A stretch of 35,967 nucleotides of DNA, from the NCBI GenBank assembly GCA_021828255.1, contig JAKASB010000001.1:26608-62574 (forward strand), in the 5' to 3' direction. Source of the stretch: a bacterium. GTDB lineage: Bacteria; SZUA-79; Acidulodesulfobacterales; Acidulodesulfobacteraceae. How positions within the stretch are numbered: the first letter of the stretch is position 1; each line of letters starts with the position of its first letter. Under the pieces are notes generated by a model that saw nothing but the letters and a program-made list of their open reading frames with translations, was not told where the DNA came from and ran no database searches. This document shows positions 23,850 to 35,967 of this stretch, piece by piece. Position numbers and translations under genes: made by a program.

Positions 23850-24332
23850 ATGTTATTAGCTCTGTTTAACGATTACTCTCTTAAAATTGCCGCAAAAATT
23901 CAGACCGAAATCTATACCGAAGATTTCCGTTTTAAAAAATTAGAAAAAAATTGGCAAAAAATTCTAATTTTGGCTTTTGCCTTCGGCTCTATTTTATCCG
24001 TCAGCTCCCATGCGTTTGCCGTTATAAATTTAAATCAGGGTTCTTTGGGAATCGGGGCTTCGGGAATTTTAAACGAGGCTACGACATGGATTTGCTACAG
24101 GCTTGCCCCTGCCACGCTGACCATAGGTCTTATTAAAGGGTTTTACGATATAAAACAGCATAAGCCCGATGCGGCAAGGAAAGCGTTTATAACGGCGGCG
24201 GCAGGTACGGGGGTTATGCTCGCTCCTACGATAACTGGAGCGATACTCGGCATCGTCCAGAGCGCAGGGGGTTCTACCGGGGGAATTAATATGGGAGGCG
24301 GAAACGGCGCAACTACGGTAGGACAGCCATAG
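23850..24332 (+). CDS. VirB2/TrbC-like pilin candidate
   Basis: AGGAGG SD; hydrophobic leader ending SSHAFA; two hydrophobic segments with a short KGFYDIKQHKPDAARK loop; Gly-rich tail; first gene before VirB3- and VirB4-like genes. Confidence 0.65.
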   Translation: MLLALFNDYSLKIAAKIQTEIYTEDFRFKKLEKNWQKILILAFAFGSILSVSSHAFAVINLNQGSLGIGASGILNEATTWICYRLAPATLTIGLIKGFYDIKQHKPDAARKAFITAAAGTGVMLAPTITGAILGIVQSAGGSTGGINMGGGNGATTVGQP

Positions 24333-24413: not shown

Positions 24414-24740
24414 ATGAAAAATCAAAATAACTATAGCAATAACTACGGCAATAACTATGCCGAATTTAAAATTTACAGCGGGATACACGGCAAAGTTACG
24501 AGGTTCGGCCTGGAAATTTACGACTGGGGGCTTTTTATATTTTTTACCATGATTTCTATCCTTTTATTTAAAAAAATTATTATTATTGCAATATTATTAG
24601 ATGCCGCCGTTTTAATTTTTTTTAAAAAATATAAAAAGAATAAGCCGGATTTTTATACAAGTTCATTATTATCCTTTATATTTACTAAAAAAGAGCTTTT
24701 TGTTTTAAACCCGGAACAAGATAAAAAAATTAAATTTTAA
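24414..24740 (+). CDS. VirB3/TrbD-like protein
   Basis: Short protein with a hydrophobic hairpin immediately upstream of VirB4; Asn/Tyr-rich N-terminus. Confidence 0.6.
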   Translation: MKNQNNYSNNYGNNYAEFKIYSGIHGKVTRFGLEIYDWGLFIFFTMISILLFKKIIIIAILLDAAVLIFFKKYKKNKPDFYTSSLLSFIFTKKELFVLNPEQDKKIKF

Positions 24741-24749
24741 TATTCCGTT

Positions 24750-27386
24750 ATGTTTTTAAATTCCGTTTTAAAGAAAATAGATATAAACGATTCTTTAAAC
24801 AATTATATTAATCTTATGTCTGTGAATGACGGCGTCGCTATAGGAATAGACGGATCGTTTACCATAGGTTTTAAGGTCAAAGGTTTCGATTATTATCTTT
24901 CAGGAAACGAAACTATTAACGATGCGACATACGTGAATGACCTATTGTTAAATCTTCTGGACGAAAACATAAGTTTTCAATGGATTTACAAAATAGAAGA
25001 CAGAAACGACGAATTCATATTCAATTATGAAAAATCATCCGTTCCACCGGAACATTTTAAATACATTAAGGAAAATAAAATTAAAAGTTTGAAAGAAAAA
25101 CATATAAAAAATATTAAGATATATCTATTTTGTTCAATTAACGGTTTAAATTTACAAAGTAAATCTAACGGCACTAATCTATTATCTAAAATTTTGGATT
25201 ATTCGACGGGACTTTTTAAAATTAATATTGCAGGAGCGGTTAATTCCAATGCAAGGAATAAAACTAAGGCTGATATGGAGCTTATAGAAAAAAAGCTTAT
25301 AAATATTGAAAATAACCTGTGCTTCATATCGTCAAGACTCAATATAGGTTTAAAAAGAATGAATAATCAGGAACTTACGGATTATTTTTATAAAGAATTA
25401 AATCCAGACAGGTCGGCTTCGATAAAAGTTCCGAAATGGGAAGATATGATAGATAATGGAACGACTTTTAGAAGTCAATTAATATATTCTTATGCCGAAA
25501 TTAAAAAAGATTACTTTTATGTGGACGGCTACTATTACAAATTTATAAATATGCATAGGCTACCTTCCCATATCGATTCATTCGGCATAACTTCGCTTTT
25601 GAATATAAAAAATTCCGGATCTGCGGCACCTGCCGCCGTTAATGGCGGGACTACCGGTAATGCCGATACCGGTATAAAAGGAGATTTCTTCCCATATGAT
25701 GTTTGTGTTGCCTTTAATATTCCCGAACAAGAAAAAACGATAGAAAAAATACAAACCGACAGAAATATAAAAGCAAGTTTAACCGAAGCCGTAGGGGGCG
25801 GATATACGGATTATAAAGGCGTAAACATTACCGAACAATTAGACGAGTTTTTAAAATCAGCTTCAAAAATGCAGAAGAAAATCGTGGAATTTTCTTTATG
25901 CGCAAGGATTAAGTCTAAAAATTTAGAGGAACTTAATTTTAGAGCGGCAAAACTTCTTGAATCGTTTAAAAATTTTAACGGAATGGAAGGGATCACCGAC
26001 AACATGGAACACCATAATTTATTTCTGTCGTTTCTTCCCGGACAATCCAGTTTTAACAGGAGGTTTAAAACATCCATTTCGTCTTCGGCGGCGGCATTTT
26101 TCCCTTTAAATGAAGGTTTTAGCGGAACGGAAAGATGCGCTATTCCGTTGATTAACGACAGGGGAGAAGGAGTAAAATTAGATATTTACAATAATCCTTT
26201 GCCCTCGAAACATGGAATAGTTTTCGGAAAAACGAGGAGCGGAAAAGGCTTTATGTTAAATGGATTTCTGGCTAATTTTTACATTTCCGGCGGAAATTAC
26301 CATATTATAGGTGTAGATATAGGCGGAACTTACAAAAAATTCTGCAAAATATTTAACGGCGATTATATAGAACTAGATTTAGACGGAAACTATTGCTTGA
26401 ATCCGTTTCCTCCAAAGAAATATGTTGTTAGGACCGTAAACGGAGAAGAAATATTTGACCCCGATATAATGGTATTTTTAACCGGCATAATAGGACTCAT
26501 GGCAGAACCTGAAAAAAATTTATCGCCGAACGATAAAACTATTATAAACCGTGCCATACAGACTTCGTATGACAGAATAACAGATGCGGAAGATACGCCC
26601 GTAATATCCGATATTAATAACGTTTTATTCGACTATAACGAAGGCAGGGATATTCTCGATAAAAAAAGAGCTATGGAAATGGGGAAAAATTTATTTCAGT
26701 GGACGGATATTTCTTCGCCTTACGGAATATTATTAAATAGGAAAAACGGCATAGATGTAAACAATAAAATAGTTATATTCGATCTGCAGAAATTAAAAGG
26801 GTACGAAGACCTCCAGAAAGTAGTATTTGCAATAATAAAAAATATTTCGTTCAAAAAAATGTACGATAAGTCGGCAAAAGTTTTTTTCTTTTACGACGAA
26901 TGTTGGGAATTTATGAACGACCCTAAGATTTCCGAACTGATAATGCATCTTTATAAAACTTCGGCGAAATGGGGTTCTATGGTCTGGAGCGTTACTCAGG
27001 AACCGGGAGACCTGTTAAAGGCGGGCAATATAGGCAAAAGCATTATAGAAAATTCGTCGGTAAAAATATTCTGTCAGTTGGACGGCGGCGTTTCCGAGGC
27101 AGATTTAATTGCATGCGGGCTTAACGATAAGGAAACCGGCATCGTCAAAAATCTTAAAGTGGTTAAAGGGCATTATGCCGAATATTTTTTAAAATTCGGA
27201 AAAGATTCCGCAATTATAAGAAATTCCCCCGACCCTTTTGAATACTGGCTCTGTTGTAAATCTTCAGAGGACGAAGAAATAGAAAGGCAAATAGAAGAGC
27301 TTTATCCGGATAAATCATTAAAAGAGCGGCTTTATATTCTTGCGGAAAAATATCCTAACGGACCGTATGGGATAAAAACGGTTTAA
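24750..27386 (+). CDS. virB4: VirB4/TraC/TrbE-family T4SS ATPase
   Basis: P-loop HGIVFGKTRSGKGFMLNGFL, IIGVDIGGTYKKFCKIFNGDYIELDLDGNYCLNPF, Walker B KVFFFYDECWEFM, MVWSVTQEPGDLL, SSVKIFCQLD. Confidence 0.93.
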   Translation: MFLNSVLKKIDINDSLNNYINLMSVNDGVAIGIDGSFTIGFKVKGFDYYLSGNETINDATYVNDLLLNLLDENISFQWIYKIEDRNDEFIFNYEKSSVPPEHFKYIKENKIKSLKEKHIKNIKIYLFCSINGLNLQSKSNGTNLLSKILDYSTGLFKINIAGAVNSNARNKTKADMELIEKKLINIENNLCFISSRLNIGLKRMNNQELTDYFYKELNPDRSASIKVPKWEDMIDNGTTFRSQLIYSYAEIKKDYFYVDGYYYKFINMHRLPSHIDSFGITSLLNIKNSGSAAPAAVNGGTTGNADTGIKGDFFPYDVCVAFNIPEQEKTIEKIQTDRNIKASLTEAVGGGYTDYKGVNITEQLDEFLKSASKMQKKIVEFSLCARIKSKNLEELNFRAAKLLESFKNFNGMEGITDNMEHHNLFLSFLPGQSSFNRRFKTSISSSAAAFFPLNEGFSGTERCAIPLINDRGEGVKLDIYNNPLPSKHGIVFGKTRSGKGFMLNGFLANFYISGGNYHIIGVDIGGTYKKFCKIFNGDYIELDLDGNYCLNPFPPKKYVVRTVNGEEIFDPDIMVFLTGIIGLMAEPEKNLSPNDKTIINRAIQTSYDRITDAEDTPVISDINNVLFDYNEGRDILDKKRAMEMGKNLFQWTDISSPYGILLNRKNGIDVNNKIVIFDLQKLKGYEDLQKVVFAIIKNISFKKMYDKSAKVFFFYDECWEFMNDPKISELIMHLYKTSAKWGSMVWSVTQEPGDLLKAGNIGKSIIENSSVKIFCQLDGGVSEADLIACGLNDKETGIVKNLKVVKGHYAEYFLKFGKDSAIIRNSPDPFEYWLCCKSSEDEEIERQIEELYPDKSLKERLYILAEKYPNGPYGIKTV

Positions 27387-27593: not shown

Positions 27594-27680
27594 TTGCAGG
27601 AGGATTACGGTAAATCATATTACGGCATAGAAGATTACCACCCCAAACATATAAAAAAGATAAATGAAGAGAGGTTATAA
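27594..27680 (+). pseudogene. Possible 3' remnant of the same small gene
   Basis: Open frame LQEDYGKSYYGIEDYHPKHIKKINEERL* ends 1 nt before ATG 27682 of the next gene and covers its SD (gagagg). Confidence 0.4.
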
Positions 27681-27681
27681 T

Positions 27682-28815
27682 ATGAATAATAGAAAAATAA
27701 AAGGTAAAAGAATTAAGTTGTTTTTGTCGTCCGCAATAGCCGTATTTACTATTGTGGTCTATTCTCTTGGAATATCATACGGACTTGCGCTTCCTTTGCC
27801 GGATATAGGCGTGATTTCGGGTCAGATTCAGTCGGTTGAAACTGCCGCAAGCGGGGCATTTTCGGCTTTGCAGGGACTTGCCGGAACGCTCGGATATGCT
27901 CCTGGAGCATCCGGGGGTCCGCTTTTTAATCCCGGTCCAGGACTGGCGGCGGCAATGTCCACGGTTGACAAACTTACCGCCGACGTTTCGAATATGCAGG
28001 AAGAATATCAGAATATAGTCATTAATTACGACAAGTTGAATCATCTTGTGGATTCCGTAGCAAATACGGTTAGCGGCATAAACAATCTGAATAATCAAAT
28101 AAATTCAGCCTTCAATCAAATTCCGCAGGATTTGACGGCAGGCGACGTTCAGGTAGATTCTGTTCAAAGCCTTGTTTCCGGTATTAATTCCAATATTAAT
28201 TTGGAATCTTCCGAATATCAAAATCTTAATTCCGCAGGCGAACCGTTTAACCCGCAGATTTTTGTTTCAGGGTATTCTTCTTCGGAAGGAAATAATTTAA
28301 ACAAAACCGCCCTCGAAAACGGTTCGGCACAGTTTACCGAAGGAGTTATTTTTAACTCGGCGGGAAACGCCGGAACGGCAAACGAACAGATTAACTGTTC
28401 GTCTTTAGACGGAGGCTACTACTTAAGCGGCGGTGGAAATCCGGTCGGAGGTTGTATCGATCCGGTAAACGGATTTATAGCGGATACGGCATCTTCTGGT
28501 CTTTATAATGCCGGTATTTCGGCGGCAAGAGCGCATAAAGCCGAAATCGAAAGCAGCGAATTTATGCAGGAGATTTCAGGTGACGCACTGAAAAACAGCA
28601 CTAATTATTATGCCTATCAGAGTTCTATTTTAACGCTTATAGCAGAAGAAAACGCCGCAAATTTAAAAAATTTAGGATATATGGAAAGCCAGCTAAAGCA
28701 GATAGAATTGGCTAAATCCGCTGAAGAAATCAAGCATGAGCATACCGGCGCCGCAATATTGCCTCAAACCAATTTTGAACCCGATATGAATTTTTACGGC
28801 AAAACCACTATGTAA
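27682..28815 (+). CDS. VirB5/TrbJ-like secreted T4SS protein (ATG 27682 preferred)
   Basis: Signal peptide; helical body; C-terminal NAANLKNLGYMESQLKQIELAKSAEEIKHEH; position between VirB4 and VirB6. Confidence 0.6.
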   Translation: MNNRKIKGKRIKLFLSSAIAVFTIVVYSLGISYGLALPLPDIGVISGQIQSVETAASGAFSALQGLAGTLGYAPGASGGPLFNPGPGLAAAMSTVDKLTADVSNMQEEYQNIVINYDKLNHLVDSVANTVSGINNLNNQINSAFNQIPQDLTAGDVQVDSVQSLVSGINSNINLESSEYQNLNSAGEPFNPQIFVSGYSSSEGNNLNKTALENGSAQFTEGVIFNSAGNAGTANEQINCSSLDGGYYLSGGGNPVGGCIDPVNGFIADTASSGLYNAGISAARAHKAEIESSEFMQEISGDALKNSTNYYAYQSSILTLIAEENAANLKNLGYMESQLKQIELAKSAEEIKHEHTGAAILPQTNFEPDMNFYGKTTM

Positions 28816-28855: not shown

Positions 28856-30004
28856 ATGAGTGTATATTTAAAGTTTTTATTTATTGCCGGTTTAATCTTC
28901 TTATCTAATTATATTTTGATGAAAACCGCTTATGGCGCTGCCGCTTCAAATTTAAATCCTCCGGCACCCACAAGTGCAAGTTCGAGCGGTACTGCTTTGT
29001 CTTCAAGTATCGGCAGCGTCAACGAATCCGCGATGTCTATTTCAAAGTTGGACAACGGGGAAGACTTAAGTATGCTATCCATAGATTCAATTCCGTCTGC
29101 ACTTGATCAGAATTCTATTCTGAGCGGTTTTGTAACGTATATGTTTTATTTCCTGTTTGCCCTCGGGATAATTTTGTCGTTTTTTGAAGGGTATAAGGCA
29201 GAATTAGCAGGAGCATCGTTTAGTTATTACGGATTATTTTTAAGAACAGCATTAGTAGCTATAGGTTTTCTTTCATGGAAGCAGACCGGACAGTCTAATT
29301 TTGTCCAAATGATTTTAACTCTTGCCGATAAAATTCAACTCTATCTTATAAAACAAAATATATTCAGTTTAGGACAATCCGTATCGCAAATAGTTTCTTC
29401 TATTTCGGGCAGTCTTCATTCGGTTTCTATTCCGGCGATTTCTTCTAACGGAACGGCATCAGTCCAAAAAGTGTGGAATTTAAATCCGGTTTCGTGGCTT
29501 GCAGGAGCAATACATGCTATAACCGGTACCGTTTTAATGGGTATAATATGGTTTTTCTTCAATATTTTATATTTAGTTATTCAGCTTTTTATGGCGCTGA
29601 CGCAGCTTATATTTTTAGGATTACTGTTTTCTATATGTCCAATTATACTTGGATTTGAAACAATCCCTTATACAAGGGGAATATTTGCAAAATGGATGAA
29701 AATGTTCATAGAAATTTCATTCTGGGGAGTTATGGTTGCCCTTGAGCAGTTAATTTTCTTTACTATTCTTAGTAAAATGGAATCCATAAATCTTCCGTCG
29801 TCGGAAACCGGCATCGGAAATATTCTCGGAATGTTCACTTTTGCGGAGGTTATTACGGTTTTTATAATTATGATGGTTATAAACGTTTCGGTTCCGTTTT
29901 TAGTAGCCAAATTATTTGACGGTATAAGCACAGAGGCACACGAAAAAATAAAAACGATAAAGCTAAAGGCGGCAGGCACCGGCACCGGTGCTGCGGGGCT
30001 ATGA
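28856..30004 (+). CDS. VirB6/TrbL-like polytopic membrane protein
   Basis: Signal/TM N-terminus and multiple hydrophobic segments (TYMFYFLFALGIILSFFEGYK, MGIIWFFFNILYLVIQLFMALTQLIFLGLLFSICPIILGFE). Confidence 0.75.
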   Translation: MSVYLKFLFIAGLIFLSNYILMKTAYGAAASNLNPPAPTSASSSGTALSSSIGSVNESAMSISKLDNGEDLSMLSIDSIPSALDQNSILSGFVTYMFYFLFALGIILSFFEGYKAELAGASFSYYGLFLRTALVAIGFLSWKQTGQSNFVQMILTLADKIQLYLIKQNIFSLGQSVSQIVSSISGSLHSVSIPAISSNGTASVQKVWNLNPVSWLAGAIHAITGTVLMGIIWFFFNILYLVIQLFMALTQLIFLGLLFSICPIILGFETIPYTRGIFAKWMKMFIEISFWGVMVALEQLIFFTILSKMESINLPSSETGIGNILGMFTFAEVITVFIIMMVINVSVPFLVAKLFDGISTEAHEKIKTIKLKAAGTGTGAAGL

Positions 30005-30008
30005 CATA

Positions 30009-30671
30009 ATGGGAAACCTTTTAAATTACAAAGACGATTATAAAAAGAGAAACGGCAGACTTTTTTACGAAATATGGGGAGACCTTGAAGCCCAGAATAT
30101 AACGCTCAAAATTGTAATAATTCTAATGTCGTTAATTACCGTAATATCGATTCTTACGGCATTTTATACATATAAGGCGAACAGAATTCCAGTGGTGATA
30201 AGAGTAAACGAAGCAGGAAACGCAAAAGTATTAAGGAATCTGCCGTTTAACAACAAAACCGGCATTGGTGAAATAGTATATTTTTCCAAGAGTTTCGTAA
30301 GGGAGTTTACGGGTTTCAATTCCATAATGATTAAGACGGAACTTTCGAGGGCATTAAATAAAATGTCCGAAGATTATGGTAAAAAGACCCTTGTTATGAT
30401 TATCCGCAGCAAATTTATTCAGAAAATGGAAAAAGCGAATATAACGTCTAAAATTAAATTTAAAAAGATAAAGCTCGTCAGACAGACCATAAATCACGAT
30501 GAATTAAAACTTTATGTTGTAAGAAGTGTAATTTCCGATTCCGATTCTTCTATTAAAAACAGCGCCGCATACGAAGACAAGCTCATTCTCAAAAGGATCA
30601 AAAGAAGTATCCAGTATCCTTTTGGTCTTGAAGTAGTTTATTTCAGCAGTTTAAAACTCGGAGGAGCATGA
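30009..30671 (+). CDS. VirB8/TrbF-like protein (ATG 30009 preferred)
   Basis: NRLFYEIWGDLEAQNITLKIVIILMSLITVISILTAFYTYKANRIPVVIRVNEAGNAKV: single N-terminal TM and periplasmic domain; between VirB6- and VirB10-like genes. Confidence 0.65.
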   Translation: MGNLLNYKDDYKKRNGRLFYEIWGDLEAQNITLKIVIILMSLITVISILTAFYTYKANRIPVVIRVNEAGNAKVLRNLPFNNKTGIGEIVYFSKSFVREFTGFNSIMIKTELSRALNKMSEDYGKKTLVMIIRSKFIQKMEKANITSKIKFKKIKLVRQTINHDELKLYVVRSVISDSDSSIKNSAAYEDKLILKRIKRSIQYPFGLEVVYFSSLKLGGA

Positions 30672-31948
30672 TTATAATGTTTAGTTTTAATAACGGCGGT
30701 GGAAACGGCGGGAGTTTCGAAAGTGACGGAGGGGGCGGAGCGGGCCGGCAAAATAATGAACATGTAATAAAAGAAGAAGATATATATAATTCCGAACCAT
30801 ACAAGAAGGACAAACTTTTAAATAAAGATTTCTTTAGATTTTTCAGACTTCCACTTATAATAATTGTTTTTTTAATAGCCGCGGTTATCGTCTTGAAGTT
30901 TTTATTTTTTCATAAGACAAATCCGGCAAAAATAAAAAAAATATCGGCAAAAAATATCGTGATACCGGATAAAAAAAGATTTTCTCCGGCTGTTTTCGAT
31001 TATAACGAAAAAAAAGAAAGAAACAGCGGCGAAGGTGCGGCAAAGGCTAAGACCAAGAAATTCGCCAAATTTAATCATAAATTTAAAAAAGAAACGGAAA
31101 AATTAAACCGCAATATAAAATTTAATAACGGCGAAACAGCTTATGTGAAGGCATCTCCAGGGGCAGCATCGCAAGTTAATAAAAAAATGGTGGTTTTTAT
31201 TGAAGCAAGCTACGGAAAATATATTTTAAATATGGAAAGATATCACCCCGCCCTTAGGTCTCCACTTCTTATCGAGAGTGGAGTTAAAAACGGAGCCGGC
31301 AATAAAAATGCCGCCTTTATGTTTCCGGGCAGCGGGAAGAAAGAAGTAACGGGTGGGAGTCCCGATAACTCCGCCGTTGCTATACCACAGGGAACGGTAA
31401 TAAACGCTTATACCAAGTATAAAATATTTTCTTACAATACTTCCGTTCCGGTTATCGCGGTTTCCTCTTCCGGTTATTATTACAACGGGAAAGCCGTTTT
31501 TGAAAAAGGCGATAAATTTTTTGGAACTGTAAGCGTAAAACATTCCTTAAACCGCCTGAATATCGATTTAGATAAAATTATAAAAAAGTCTGGAAACAGT
31601 GTAAATATAGATGCAATAGCGATGATGCCCGACGGTTCCGGCGGTGTTAAAGGCGATGTCCACCGGCATTACGCCGGCAATATCTTAACGTCCATAGCGC
31701 AAGGCATAGCGGGAGCGGCATCTATTTTCATCGGAGGGGGTTCCGGTGTAAATTCTTCTAATCCTTATACATTTCAAAATCAAGTAAGGGAAAATGTTGC
31801 GCAAAATGAGCTTAATTCAGCGCAAAACGGATTGAATAATTATGCAGATTCAAATCGAAACGCAAGTATAACTTTATCTGCCGGTACCCCCATTAAAATC
31901 ATATTTCTTAAACCGGTATATATAAATCAAATAAAACAAAATAGATAA
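30668..31948 (+). CDS. VirB10/TrbI-like protein
   Basis: Gly-rich cytoplasmic N-terminus, one TM, C-terminal IPQGTVINAYTKYKIFSYNTSVPVIAVSSSGYYYNGKAVFEKGDKFFGTVSV...MMPDGSGGVKGDVHRHY. Confidence 0.8.
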   Translation: MIIMFSFNNGGGNGGSFESDGGGGAGRQNNEHVIKEEDIYNSEPYKKDKLLNKDFFRFFRLPLIIIVFLIAAVIVLKFLFFHKTNPAKIKKISAKNIVIPDKKRFSPAVFDYNEKKERNSGEGAAKAKTKKFAKFNHKFKKETEKLNRNIKFNNGETAYVKASPGAASQVNKKMVVFIEASYGKYILNMERYHPALRSPLLIESGVKNGAGNKNAAFMFPGSGKKEVTGGSPDNSAVAIPQGTVINAYTKYKIFSYNTSVPVIAVSSSGYYYNGKAVFEKGDKFFGTVSVKHSLNRLNIDLDKIIKKSGNSVNIDAIAMMPDGSGGVKGDVHRHYAGNILTSIAQGIAGAASIFIGGGSGVNSSNPYTFQNQVRENVAQNELNSAQNGLNNYADSNRNASITLSAGTPIKIIFLKPVYINQIKQNR

Positions 31949-31989: not shown

Positions 31990-32946
31990 ATGATAAATAA
32001 TAATTATAAATATAACGATAACAGCTATAACTATAACGATACCCGCGATATTAATAATTTCGATATCGAATTTTCTAATATTAATTCTATTTTAGATAAA
32101 TTAAATTTCATTAAAGATGATTTAGATTCTAATTTTCTGGAAAGAAAGGGCGTTATAGATATGATTATTCTTGCAGTCGTTTCAAAAAAACATTCGATAT
32201 TGATAGGGGAGCCGGGGCTTGCCAAGACCGCCGTATTGAAGGCTTTAGCCGGACATGTAAAAGGGCTTAAGCTTTTTGATTTTCAGATGACTCCCGCTAC
32301 CGGTATCAACGAACTTATGTCTAAAAACATTCAAAATAAAACCGGCATAGATAACTGCGATATAGCGTTGATAGACGAATTTTTTAAAGGACCGCATGCC
32401 GCGCTTAATTCTCTTTTATCCATTATGAACGAAAGAATAGTATATGTTCCGGAGCCGCGCAAAATTCCTTTAATCAGCCTTTTTGCGACGTCTAACGAAA
32501 AACCAGATAAGTCGTCTGATGCAAATCTTTTGCCCCTTTACGATAGGTTTTTATTCAGAAAAGAGATACTGCCTATAAGAAATGCCGGAAATTTCAAAAA
32601 ACTGCTTGAATTAAAAGACGAACAGAATTTGAATAATATCGGCTGTGCCGGAAAGACGTTCACAAGGAAGGATTTAGACGTGTTAACTTCAATGATAGGC
32701 GCGGTCGGTATAGGCGGTGAAATTTTTAATTGTTTATATAGAATAAGGGAAGAATTGAGAAACAAGCAGGTAATAGTTTCAGACAGAAGGTGGCATGAAA
32801 CGATTAAAATATTAAAAGCAAACGCATTATTAAATAAACGAAATACCGTAGTTAAGAGCGATATCGAGGTACTTGAACCATCGTTGTGGACGTATTATTC
32901 GGATATAAGGGCTGTTAAAAATATTTTAAGGAGAGAACTGCAATGA
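31990..32946 (+). CDS. MoxR/RavA-family AAA+ ATPase
   Basis: Walker A SILIGEPGLAKTAVL; FQMTPATGINELM; Walker B IALIDEFFKGPHAALNSLLSIMNER; sensor ATSNEKP; DRFLFR. Confidence 0.9.
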   Translation: MINNNYKYNDNSYNYNDTRDINNFDIEFSNINSILDKLNFIKDDLDSNFLERKGVIDMIILAVVSKKHSILIGEPGLAKTAVLKALAGHVKGLKLFDFQMTPATGINELMSKNIQNKTGIDNCDIALIDEFFKGPHAALNSLLSIMNERIVYVPEPRKIPLISLFATSNEKPDKSSDANLLPLYDRFLFRKEILPIRNAGNFKKLLELKDEQNLNNIGCAGKTFTRKDLDVLTSMIGAVGIGGEIFNCLYRIREELRNKQVIVSDRRWHETIKILKANALLNKRNTVVKSDIEVLEPSLWTYYSDIRAVKNILRRELQ

Positions 32947-34805
32947 AAGGGAACAGGGCGTTTATCGCAAAATTAACGGCATCGTCGGGTTTATTTGCTT
33001 CCGAGCTTATTTACCTGTTTTTTATCTCCGGATTTTTTTCGGATAAAAGGATTGACTATTATTTTGCTTATTTTAACGGCATCAAACTATTTTTTATCAT
33101 TACTCCGTTAGCCTCATGGTTTATTTCCTCATATACGCTGTTGAATACCGTTCACAACAAATATTTATATTTTAAGCCTGAGGAGGGTAAAAAAAAGAAA
33201 AATAAAATGACAGATAAAATGAATGCTAATGCCTTCAAAGATGTTCTGGTGTGGCCGGAACCTGAAAATCTCCAATTAGTCATAGGAGAGATTCATGAAA
33301 AAGACGGAGCAAGAAAAGAGAAGCCGGAATGGCTCATTATGGATAAAAGCGGGCTTTATACCGGTCTTATCGTTTTTGGTTCTACCGGCACGGGAAAAAC
33401 AAGCGCCTGCGCATACCCATTTTTAGACCAGCTGGCAAAATACAAAAAAGAATCGGCGGACGAAAGAATCGGCGGCTTAATATTAGACGTTAAGGGAGAT
33501 TTCTGGAAAGAAGCGTCGCTTATACTTAAACGCAACGGAAGGAAAGACGATACGGTTATAATAAAGCCCGGCTCCGGTTATTATTTTAATCCCGTGCATT
33601 ATCCGCATTTAGATTCAAAGATTATAGCGGAAAGATTGTATTCAGTCCTCGAAAATATGCATTCTAACGACGGAAGACAGGACAGTTTCTGGAAAGACAA
33701 GTCTATAAATCTTCTTTCAAACTCCATAAATCTCATAAGACTGTGTCTGGGATATCTTACGCTTAGCGATGTTTACGAAATTATTTCAGACGACGTCAAA
33801 TTAAAAAATATGCTTGATTATGCGCAAAATTTAATAAAATCGAAACGTAAGAGTTTTCAAAAATATGAAAACATCCGCGCTGATGAAGGCGGCAGCGAAG
33901 GTATAGGTATAGACATAGATGTAAACGTAAACGAATTGAAACTTGCAATATCGTATTTTTCTGGAGCCGATTATGCGGGTCTCGACGAAAGAACAAAGGC
34001 AATTATAAAGAGCGAATCCTTAAGGGTGTGTTCGGATTTTATCAAACCGGCGTTTAAAGAAACTTTCTGTGCTACAGAACAAAAACTTAACTTTCCCGGG
34101 TTTCAGGAAGTTATAAACGGCGGGAAGATAGTAATTTTAAATATGCCGGAATCAGATTACGGCTTAACAGGAAAAATTATCGGCATTATGTTGAAACTCG
34201 ATTATTTCAGGACGGTATTAAACAGGGTTTATAAGGCGGCAATCGATAATTTCGTCAACATTAAAAGACCGGTTTTATTTATTTGCGACGAATATCAAAA
34301 TTATGTGACTTCGGGAGATATAGAATCCGATGCCGAATTTTTTGCAAGATGCAGGCAGTCTAAAGCAATAAATATCGTGCTTACCCAGAGCTACAGTTCG
34401 TTAAAGTTAAAACTCGGTTCGGAAGAAAAACTAAATTCGTTAATCGGAAACATCAGGTCTTCGATATGGCTTGCTTTAAGCGATGACTATTCCCGTGAAA
34501 AAGCCTCTAAAATATGCGACAAAGAATACAAGCTAAAAATAACGGAAAATATAACCGAACAGGACGACAGGGCAATTTTTAATCCGTATATAGGAAAACT
34601 TTTATCCGATGACAATACTATTTCGCAGGGAACTACAAAGACTTACGAAAAGATGCCGTCCTTCGATACCGATGATTTTGCCGGTCTGAAATTAAATCAG
34701 GCGGTTTACAGAATATATTCCGGCAATGAAGTCAAAGGACCGGGTATAGTATATCTGCACCCAATATACAGACCCAAAACTAAAAGCTGTTTCGATAAAG
34801 ACTAA
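32943..34805 (+). CDS. virD4: VirD4/TraG-type T4SS coupling protein
   Basis: N-terminal TMs; Walker A LIVFGSTGTGKTSACAYPFLDQL; LILDVKGDFW; Walker B RPVLFICDEYQNYVTSGD; FARCRQSKAINIVLTQSYSSL. Confidence 0.92.
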   Translation: MKGNRAFIAKLTASSGLFASELIYLFFISGFFSDKRIDYYFAYFNGIKLFFIITPLASWFISSYTLLNTVHNKYLYFKPEEGKKKKNKMTDKMNANAFKDVLVWPEPENLQLVIGEIHEKDGARKEKPEWLIMDKSGLYTGLIVFGSTGTGKTSACAYPFLDQLAKYKKESADERIGGLILDVKGDFWKEASLILKRNGRKDDTVIIKPGSGYYFNPVHYPHLDSKIIAERLYSVLENMHSNDGRQDSFWKDKSINLLSNSINLIRLCLGYLTLSDVYEIISDDVKLKNMLDYAQNLIKSKRKSFQKYENIRADEGGSEGIGIDIDVNVNELKLAISYFSGADYAGLDERTKAIIKSESLRVCSDFIKPAFKETFCATEQKLNFPGFQEVINGGKIVILNMPESDYGLTGKIIGIMLKLDYFRTVLNRVYKAAIDNFVNIKRPVLFICDEYQNYVTSGDIESDAEFFARCRQSKAINIVLTQSYSSLKLKLGSEEKLNSLIGNIRSSIWLALSDDYSREKASKICDKEYKLKITENITEQDDRAIFNPYIGKLLSDDNTISQGTTKTYEKMPSFDTDDFAGLKLNQAVYRIYSGNEVKGPGIVYLHPIYRPKTKSCFDKD

Positions 34806-34849: not shown

Positions 34850-35188
34850 ATGAAAAACGGATATGGAAGCGGCGGCGGAACAGGACAGGGTTACGAACTT
34901 GATATTTTAGAAATTGCATTTCTTGTTTTTAGCGGATTATTCGTCCTTTTTTATTTTACGAATCCTAACTTTAAATATCTTATAGATTCTTTTTATCTTT
35001 TTATTGCCTATTCTTTTAAATTTTATACGGCGGTAATAATTCTATACGGTTTTAATTTATTCTTTTTTTTAGCCGGTCTGCATAGCCTCTATGTCAGGGT
35101 TTTTGAGATCAGGGTCAGCGGCTCCAAGCTAAAAATGTATAATAAATTAGAGCAATATAACGAGGAAAAAGCAAATAACAAAAAATAA
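34850..35188 (+). CDS. Small two-TM protein of unknown function
   Basis: Gly-rich N-terminus (MKNGYGSGGGTGQGYELD), two hydrophobic segments, charged C-terminus; within the T4SS operon. Confidence 0.6.
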   Translation: MKNGYGSGGGTGQGYELDILEIAFLVFSGLFVLFYFTNPNFKYLIDSFYLFIAYSFKFYTAVIILYGFNLFFFLAGLHSLYVRVFEIRVSGSKLKMYNKLEQYNEEKANNKK

Positions 35189-35209: not shown

Positions 35210-35967
35210 ATGCAAAAGATTAAATATTACCATATAAGTAATAAAAATTACTTTAATTACTTATCTTATTTGATTTTAATATTTGTCTCTTTATCGATAT
35301 TTAATTTTAATAGTTTGAGTAAAGCGGAAGCGCTAAAATATTCAAGTTTAAAGAAATTTAGTATTAAAAAGCCTCTGTGGGTGCATAAATTGCGGATAAA
35401 GACCGGACTTATTTATAAATTAAATACTGCCCAAGGCTATGTTTCCGTTATAACTCTGCCGGTTATACCTTTAGACGTAGCGCTCGGCAACACGGGAGCG
35501 TTTTCGGAACAGATAGTCGGAAGGCAGATATTTATAAAACCTCTAACATACGATACGAGCATAACCAGCAACCTTGAAATATATACAAAATACGGACTTA
35601 TAAACGTGCTTTTGCGGATAAAAAACCCGAAAACCGTTACGTATAATTTAGACATCGCAAATACCATGAAGGACGTCTTCGTAAAGAATTACATAAAAAA
35701 CAAAATAAAGGGGTTAAACGCCGTTTTGTTAAGAAAATATGAGGTAAAAAATCTTTTGCTCGATAAAAAAGCTCAGGCTTTAAAGAAGGAAAAAAAAGAA
35801 GTCATCGACCTTATTCTTATGATTAACAGGAAAAAAATAGACGCATCAATTACTAAAGGCGGGATAACCTTGACCGTAATTTCGATAAGCCGCATAAAAA
35901 ACTTATATTATCTGCAATATCAGCTCACTAATAATTCCGGCAGGAGTTTTTTTGTAAGAAATGTTTA
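35210..35967 (+). CDS. VirB9/TrbG-like protein, 3' truncated by window end; not in the ORF track
   Basis: SD aggggaggat then ATG 35210; 252 codons open to the edge. GYVSVITLPVIPLDVALGNTGAFSEQIVGRQIFIKPLTYDTSITSNLEIYTKYGLINVLLRI matches the VirB9/CagX pattern. Confidence 0.8.
   Translation, partial: MQKIKYYHISNKNYFNYLSYLILIFVSLSIFNFNSLSKAEALKYSSLKKFSIKKPLWVHKLRIKTGLIYKLNTAQGYVSVITLPVIPLDVALGNTGAFSEQIVGRQIFIKPLTYDTSITSNLEIYTKYGLINVLLRIKNPKTVTYNLDIANTMKDVFVKNYIKNKIKGLNAVLLRKYEVKNLLLDKKAQALKKEKKEVIDLILMINRKKIDASITKGGITLTVISISRIKNLYYLQYQLTNNSGRSFFVRNV

Follow-up and report, generated by a model that had tools for sequence, protein, structure and literature searches.

A RavA-type MoxR ATPase encoded within the type IV secretion loci of one bacterial family

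A lineage of type IV secretion systems (T4SSs) in one family of bacteria encodes a RavA-type AAA+ ATPase of the MoxR class within its own loci, and gene context, trees, and selection together indicate that this ATPase is very probably a dedicated T4SS component. The probability that it acts as a remodeler rather than a motor of the VirB11 type is, judged from sequence and predicted structure, roughly 0.6. Both the ATPase family and the class of machine are known; their combination was not found described in the open-access literature. The source family is taken here to be “Ca. Acidulodesulfobacterales” (SZUA-79 group). This group was described from acid mine drainage (PMC6776010), in a paper whose main text is silent on secretion systems, conjugation, and VirB proteins. 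T4SSs are described as driven by VirB4 and VirD4, joined in many cases by VirB11 (PMC12624023). The window, meaning the whole 35,967-nucleotide stretch of DNA analyzed, ends where its contig ends (contig position 62574).

The ATPase gene (positions 31990 to 32946, forward strand) is an intact open reading frame with an ATG start, encoding 318 amino acids. Its product matches the Pfam profiles bpMoxR (PF20030; 87 bits, above the Pfam cut-off), AAA_lid_8 (64 bits), and AAA_5 (46 bits). The best solved relative is Escherichia coli RavA (E value of 5e-27), and in the phmmer comparison with RavA structure 3nbx the Walker A (GEPGLAKT), Walker B (LIDEFF), and sensor 1 (SNE) motifs co-align, as do the arginine finger (LYDRF) and the VSDRRW motif. 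RavA is also the closest PDB fold match (3nbx/4upb; TM score of 0.81, 26% identity) of the AlphaFold model, which has a mean pLDDT of 85.6. Motifs, AAA lid, profiles, and fold thus all place the protein among the RavA-like/bpMoxR members of the MoxR AAA+ class. Is it, then, simply RavA? The NCBIfam RavA model (NF010054) matches at 111.6 bits over model positions 6 to 297 of 498, covering the N-terminal ~300 residues only, well short of the equivalog cut-off of 681 bits, which applies to a full-length model that includes the C-terminal half. The protein shares with E. coli RavA (3nbx, 4upb, 6q7l) the AAA+ core, lid, nucleotide motifs, VSDRRW motif, and fold, but it has 318 residues rather than 500 and is missing RavA's C-terminal half; and whereas ravA sits beside viaA, the gene described here sits in T4SS loci with no ViaA or other VWA gene near. 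An earlier reading made from sequence only had reported an intact RavA/MoxR AAA+ gene, motifs included, between virB10- and virD4-like genes, and the open reading frame, profile searches, and phmmer alignment agree with it.

What kind of T4SS surrounds this gene? The operon, all on the forward strand, opens with a VirB2-like pilin candidate (23850 to 24332; no Pfam family above cut-off), followed by a VirB3-like small membrane protein (24414 to 24740; no Pfam match) and, after virB4, by a secreted protein in the VirB5 position (27664 to 28815; no family match). These three are assigned by position only; the first has homologs in relatives' T4SS loci, the second has HMM homologs directly 5' of virB4 in the subtypes called A and B below, and the third has type A homologs. 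The VirB4/TraC-like ATPase (24750 to 27386) is recognized by PF19044 (105 bits), the F-type TraC model TIGR02746 (214.6 bits), and VirB4 trees. Next come a VirB6/TrbL-like membrane protein (28856 to 30004; PF04610, 32.8 bits, above cut-off), a VirB8-like protein (29988 to 30671), and a VirB10/TrbI-like protein (30668 to 31948; PF03743, 57 bits, above cut-off). The AlphaFold model of the VirB8-like protein (pLDDT of 71) resembles VirB8/TraM/DotI/TrwG folds as well as the R388 arches, with E values down to 2e-5, and its type B homolog matches PF04335 at an E value of 0.02. The RavA-type gene stands here, followed by a VirD4/TraG-like coupling ATPase (32943 to 34805; PF12696, 24.6 bits; NF045973, 60 bits), which occurs in type A loci only. 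A small conserved membrane protein matching no known family (34850 to 35188), with homologs in those type A loci that reach this far, leads to a VirB9-like protein (35210 to 35965) that is cut by the contig end and has full-length homologs in relatives; VirB9-like homologs in types B and C match PF03524 (CagX) at E values of 1.5e-6 to 6e-6, below the Pfam cut-off.

With a VirB4, VirB6, VirB8, VirB9, and VirB10 core in one operon, the system is of the VirB/D4 type. It is not F-type: the window's VirB4 falls outside the F clade (support of 99/98-99 in two VirB4 trees), and profile searches found no TraG or TraH match among the operon's proteins. No PF03432 relaxase was found in nine family genomes, the window's included, so the substrate of the type A system may not be a conjugative plasmid. 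A separate observation concerns the cytosolic N terminus of type A VirB10 (window positions 30668 to 30860), where most copies carry HVIKEEDL-like and DIYNS-like motifs flanking a low-complexity segment whose length varies greatly. These are candidate docking peptides; since types B and C are missing them, they may serve another partner.

How far does the association extend? A protein search of relatives, mostly fragmented MAGs, after which 40 neighborhoods were read, found the ATPase gene in 26 of 30 family genomes, at 36 loci. Every one of the 36 copies lies in a T4SS context, and no T4SS-free copy was found in the family. The loci fall into three subtypes: A (25, the window included), B (5), and C (6, counting L061, a 6.7-kb contig assigned by its three 5' genes); two copies, L073 and L074, are partial, lying at contig ends. 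Type A runs B2-B3-B4-B5-B6-B8-B10-AAA-D4-orf112-B9 and mostly continues into a lipoprotein and a lytic transglycosylase. Type B has the same order minus VirD4 and continues into a cluster of secretin, prepilin-like, and PilB/GspE-type ATPase genes; three type B loci (L056, L058, L059) thereby join a VirD4-less T4SS to a type IV pilus-like cluster as a compound T4SS/T4P locus. Type C is arranged differently, as B8-B9-small lipoprotein-B10, then a B3/B4 fusion, and finally a transglycosylase and the AAA gene, which is far from virB10 and is followed by a tyrosine integrase; on account of this integrase, type C is apparently mobile. Of the family genomes, 19 have a completeness of 90% or more with contamination of 5% or less, and every one of them holds this lineage's VirB4; in G001 the contig ends before the AAA position. 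The type A T4SS seems to be a fixed trait of the Acidulodesulfobacterales/SZUA-79 family. Across the neighborhoods read, the gene adjoins virB10 in both A and B, and in A it adjoins virD4 as well.

Sequence comparison indicates that the gene is under strong purifying selection, with dN/dS of 0.04 to 0.18 across ten pairs, and alignment finds its catalytic residues unchanged across the three subtypes. The copies of G012 and G013 (L066:9375-10478 and L067:9395-10480) are ~50 residues longer than their relatives and seem to carry an insert after residue ~217. In the AAA tree, all T4SS-linked copies lie on one side of a 99/98 branch that separates them from 31 outside homologs, a split that an earlier tree also gave, while the VirB4 trees unite types A, B, and C in one clade (100/98-99). 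Both kinds of tree put A with B and C apart. Wherever it occurs in the family, the ATPase is encoded within a T4SS locus, with which it is inherited. The sequence-only reading had inferred a dedicated T4SS component, and that claim is strongly supported by the residence of 36 of 36 copies in T4SS loci, their spread over three subtypes, their single clade, and purifying selection. The idea of mobile-element cargo was rejected: plasmid and phage homologs are at most 33% identical among the matches listed, and of three plasmid loci that were opened, none lies amid T4SS genes and two have an adjacent VWA gene. Viral contigs gave only 13 distant homologs and no relative of the type C VirB4.

Might a VirB11 lie hidden just beyond the window? 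A genome-wide profile search of the window's genome gave no VirB11 match above PilB/PilT/GspE background, and in relatives whose downstream sequence is intact the genes found there are those for VirB9, a lipoprotein, and a lytic transglycosylase, with no VirB11. None of the 36 ATPase-bearing loci contains one. Genome-wide searches found a clear VirB11/TrbB only in G001, G005, G010, G025, G026, and G027 (162 to 202 bits), the other matches in family genomes being PilB/PilT/GspE background, and the TrbB/VirB11 loci of G001, G005, and G010, the three that were opened, contain neither the AAA gene nor any component of types A, B, or C. A VirB11 hidden beyond the window is therefore rejected. A virB11 gene just outside the window, or homologs lacking T4SS linkage beyond this strain, had been named as grounds for abandoning the sequence-only reading; neither was found, and the absence of VirB11 that it noted holds genome-wide.

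Well-studied MoxR proteins mostly act through a VWA protein, and the lack of such a gene in the window had likewise been remarked upon. It too holds more widely: the window's genome contains no VWA_2 or CoxE-type match, so a partner elsewhere in that genome is rejected, and no VWA gene lies near the ATPase loci in the family, leaving nothing like a MoxR-VWA or RavA-ViaA pair. Some relatives do have VWA_2 proteins, whose genes lie close to those of PilB-type ATPases and not to the AAA loci.

Homologs from outside the family, of which the best 80 genome loci were examined, offer a parallel. At 14 of these loci (L114-L118, L120-L124, L126-L128, and L134), in Dadabacteria, Thermodesulfobacteriota, and other Deltaproteobacteria-type MAGs, the gene for a 383-residue RavA-type ATPase closes a gspC-D-E-F-G-H-I-J-K-type operon for type II secretion (T2SS), overlapping gspK by 16 nucleotides in all 14. 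These operons keep an intact GspE and have no VWA gene, whereas most outside loci without the T2SS link have a VWA gene after the ATPase. With its intact GspE alongside, the T2SS cousin suggests that an ATPase of this family can work for an envelope secretion machine and leave the secretion ATPase in place. T2SS-linked copies group together at 88/86 in the AAA tree, and joining them to type C is disfavored (AU test, p of 0.02, for a group named after an earlier tree had been seen); the T4SS and T2SS linkages probably arose separately. Given the scope of 80 loci, T4SS-linked MoxR genes may exist in other phyla. At one outside locus, L131, on a contig titled as a Klebsiella pneumoniae MAG, the ATPase groups with Binatota/Myxococcota and the contig is probably mis-binned or mislabeled.

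Could the ATPase be a replacement for VirB11? On this account, which is unlikely, the AAA+ ring would sit docked beneath the VirB4 hexamer, as a second motor that drives pilin extraction and the change from building pili to secreting. The gene does occupy the virB11 slot, exactly between virB10 and virD4: R388 runs virB2-3-4-5-6-8-9-10-virB11, and the order here is B2-3-4-5-6-8-10-AAA-D4. Both proteins are ring ATPases of ~300 residues, VirB11 stacks beneath VirB4 (PMC12624023), and VirB11 is missing from every ATPase-bearing T4SS, as is the AAA gene from the three TrbB/VirB11 loci opened in the family. The slot and the VirB11-free state of the ATPase-bearing systems thus also fit replacement. 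The likeness to VirB11/TrbB ends at ring, size, and slot, however: the protein lacks a T2SSE (PF00437) match, hits RavA families only, and has the RavA fold, with VirB11 absent among the 50 matches listed in the fold search. The AAA gene of type C is distant from virB10, and the T2SS cousin sits in operons that retain GspE.

The ancestry of the T4SS also speaks against replacement. A VirB4 profile survey of 393 genomes found related VirB4 proteins in five genomes outside the family, and the loci of these five, like the Myxococcus plasmid locus, lack both VirB11 and the AAA gene. The family also has separate F-like systems, recognized by TraC, TraG, and TraH matches, and in these too the AAA gene is absent. 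The nearest outside VirB4 relatives are those of G060, the Myxococcus plasmid, G121, and G236, with long branches that make their exact branching order unsure. Together with F-type, the outside relatives lie on the same side of a deep VirB4 split as types A, B, and C, set apart from the VirB11-using types (Trb and R388) by a 100/100 branch. Because the nearest outside T4SSs and the family's F-type systems lack both genes, the simplest reading is that AAA was added to a lineage that was probably already without VirB11. Of the substitute motor put forward in the sequence-only reading, then, the virB11 slot stands, while the outside relatives, F-type systems, and retained GspE go against it. A broader version, in which the ring is an integral fourth ATPase that took over the VirB11 position, genetically and perhaps also physically, with an unrelated AAA+ fold and drives pilus building or mode switching, with separate recruitment to power or remodel T2SSs, is similarly doubtful.

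What would T4SS- and T2SS-linked versions have in common? One tentative answer, about as improbable as replacement, is a shared client in pilins and pseudopilins, for instance in membrane extraction or quality control of pilins. The T2SS cousin always directly follows gspK; against this, the pseudopilins of T2SSs are unrelated to VirB2, and the trees suggest separate origins for the two linkages. Pairs of MoxR/GvpN and vWA proteins linked to archaeal T4P loci are a further point in its favor (PMC4858521).

A VirD4-specific remodeler or unfoldase, loading or unfolding substrates with the coupling protein, is very unlikely. In type A the AAA gene does adjoin virD4, which is present at the type A locus of every searched genome having one, and in some genomes the two overlap by 4 nucleotides. 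In the window this overlap (ATGA, the virD4-like frame starting at 32943) is as the sequence-only reading described it; across relatives the order is conserved and the overlap is not, spacing ranging from -64 to +160 nucleotides, which makes the ATGA coupling a local detail. Types B and C carry the ATPase with no VirD4 in the locus, and VirD4 of the type A kind occurs solely at the type A locus in G016 (near-complete, with all three types) and in G022 and G005, both of which have types A and C, and is absent from G009 (type B only). A remodeler of VirD4, as originally suggested, is accordingly disfavored. About as unlikely is a RavA-like regulatory or stress ATPase that sits in the operon incidentally, for although the protein belongs to the RavA family and in E. 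coli the targets of RavA are respiratory complexes and membranes (PMC3893208, PMC9489729), the bacterial family has no T4SS-free copy, the gene is retained in three subtypes, the integrase-bearing mobile form among them, and the VWA partner is absent.

Taken together, the comparisons suggest a VWA-independent RavA-type remodeler recruited to secretion machines. MoxR proteins are described as chaperone-like maturation factors for specific complexes (PMC3893208), and NorQ as a motor remodeling a membrane enzyme via a VWA adaptor (PMC9976466). A hexameric RavA-type ring would be a dedicated accessory part of one T4SS lineage, acting on the cytoplasmic side of the inner membrane and spending ATP to remodel a client while the machine assembles or switches. 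It would work alongside VirB4, and VirD4 in type A, and probably would not replace VirB11 directly. Since the VWA adaptor is absent here, the ring is proposed to engage directly a flexible stretch in some component of the inner-membrane complex or pilus that types A, B, and C have in common. Which component might this be? The lack of VirD4 in types B and C points to a shared core component; the candidates are VirB4, VirB6, VirB8, VirB10, and the pilin, and VirB10 is favored because its gene adjoins the AAA gene in types A and B. Pairwise-identity correlations between AAA and the other T4SS proteins (0.83 to 0.97 for all) single out no partner, as expected within one linked operon, and co-inheritance in a single operon is not evidence of physical contact. 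The missing VWA partner counts against the remodeler.

Related ATPases have been tied to other systems. The bpMoxR family (PF20030; 87 bits here, as mentioned) is known from MoxR-vWA ternary conflict systems (PMC7159879), in a paper that does not mention type IV secretion; the present loci share the family but have no adjacent VWA gene, and no such conflict system was seen. In Makarova et al. (2016; PMC4858521), the archaeal T4P pairs likewise tie a MoxR-class ATPase to a surface or secretion machine, but with a vWA partner, a proposed regulatory or modulating role, and a T4P rather than a T4SS. MoxR AAA+ genes also occur on the conjugative elements R391/SXT, IncP-7 pCAR1, R478, and Rts1, where, as described in PMC2642839, they belong to the plasmid or ICE backbone and are not placed in a T4SS operon, have a CbbQ-type C-terminal domain, and are discussed with VWA partners. 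No paper uniting RavA, MoxR, and type IV secretion was found in the open-access literature, and no account of a RavA-type/T4SS linkage was found in open-access papers that treat MoxR together with VirB11 or with conjugative transfer.

Overall, the linkage suggests that this T4SS gained an extra, energy-driven assembly helper of a kind not described in the literature searched. If so, assembly chaperones of the AAA+ type, like those of respiratory enzymes, can also be recruited by secretion machines, and MoxR ATPases can function without VWA adaptors. For a class of ATPases with few known clients, the family offers testable partners in VirB10, VirB4, VirB6, VirB8, and the pilin.
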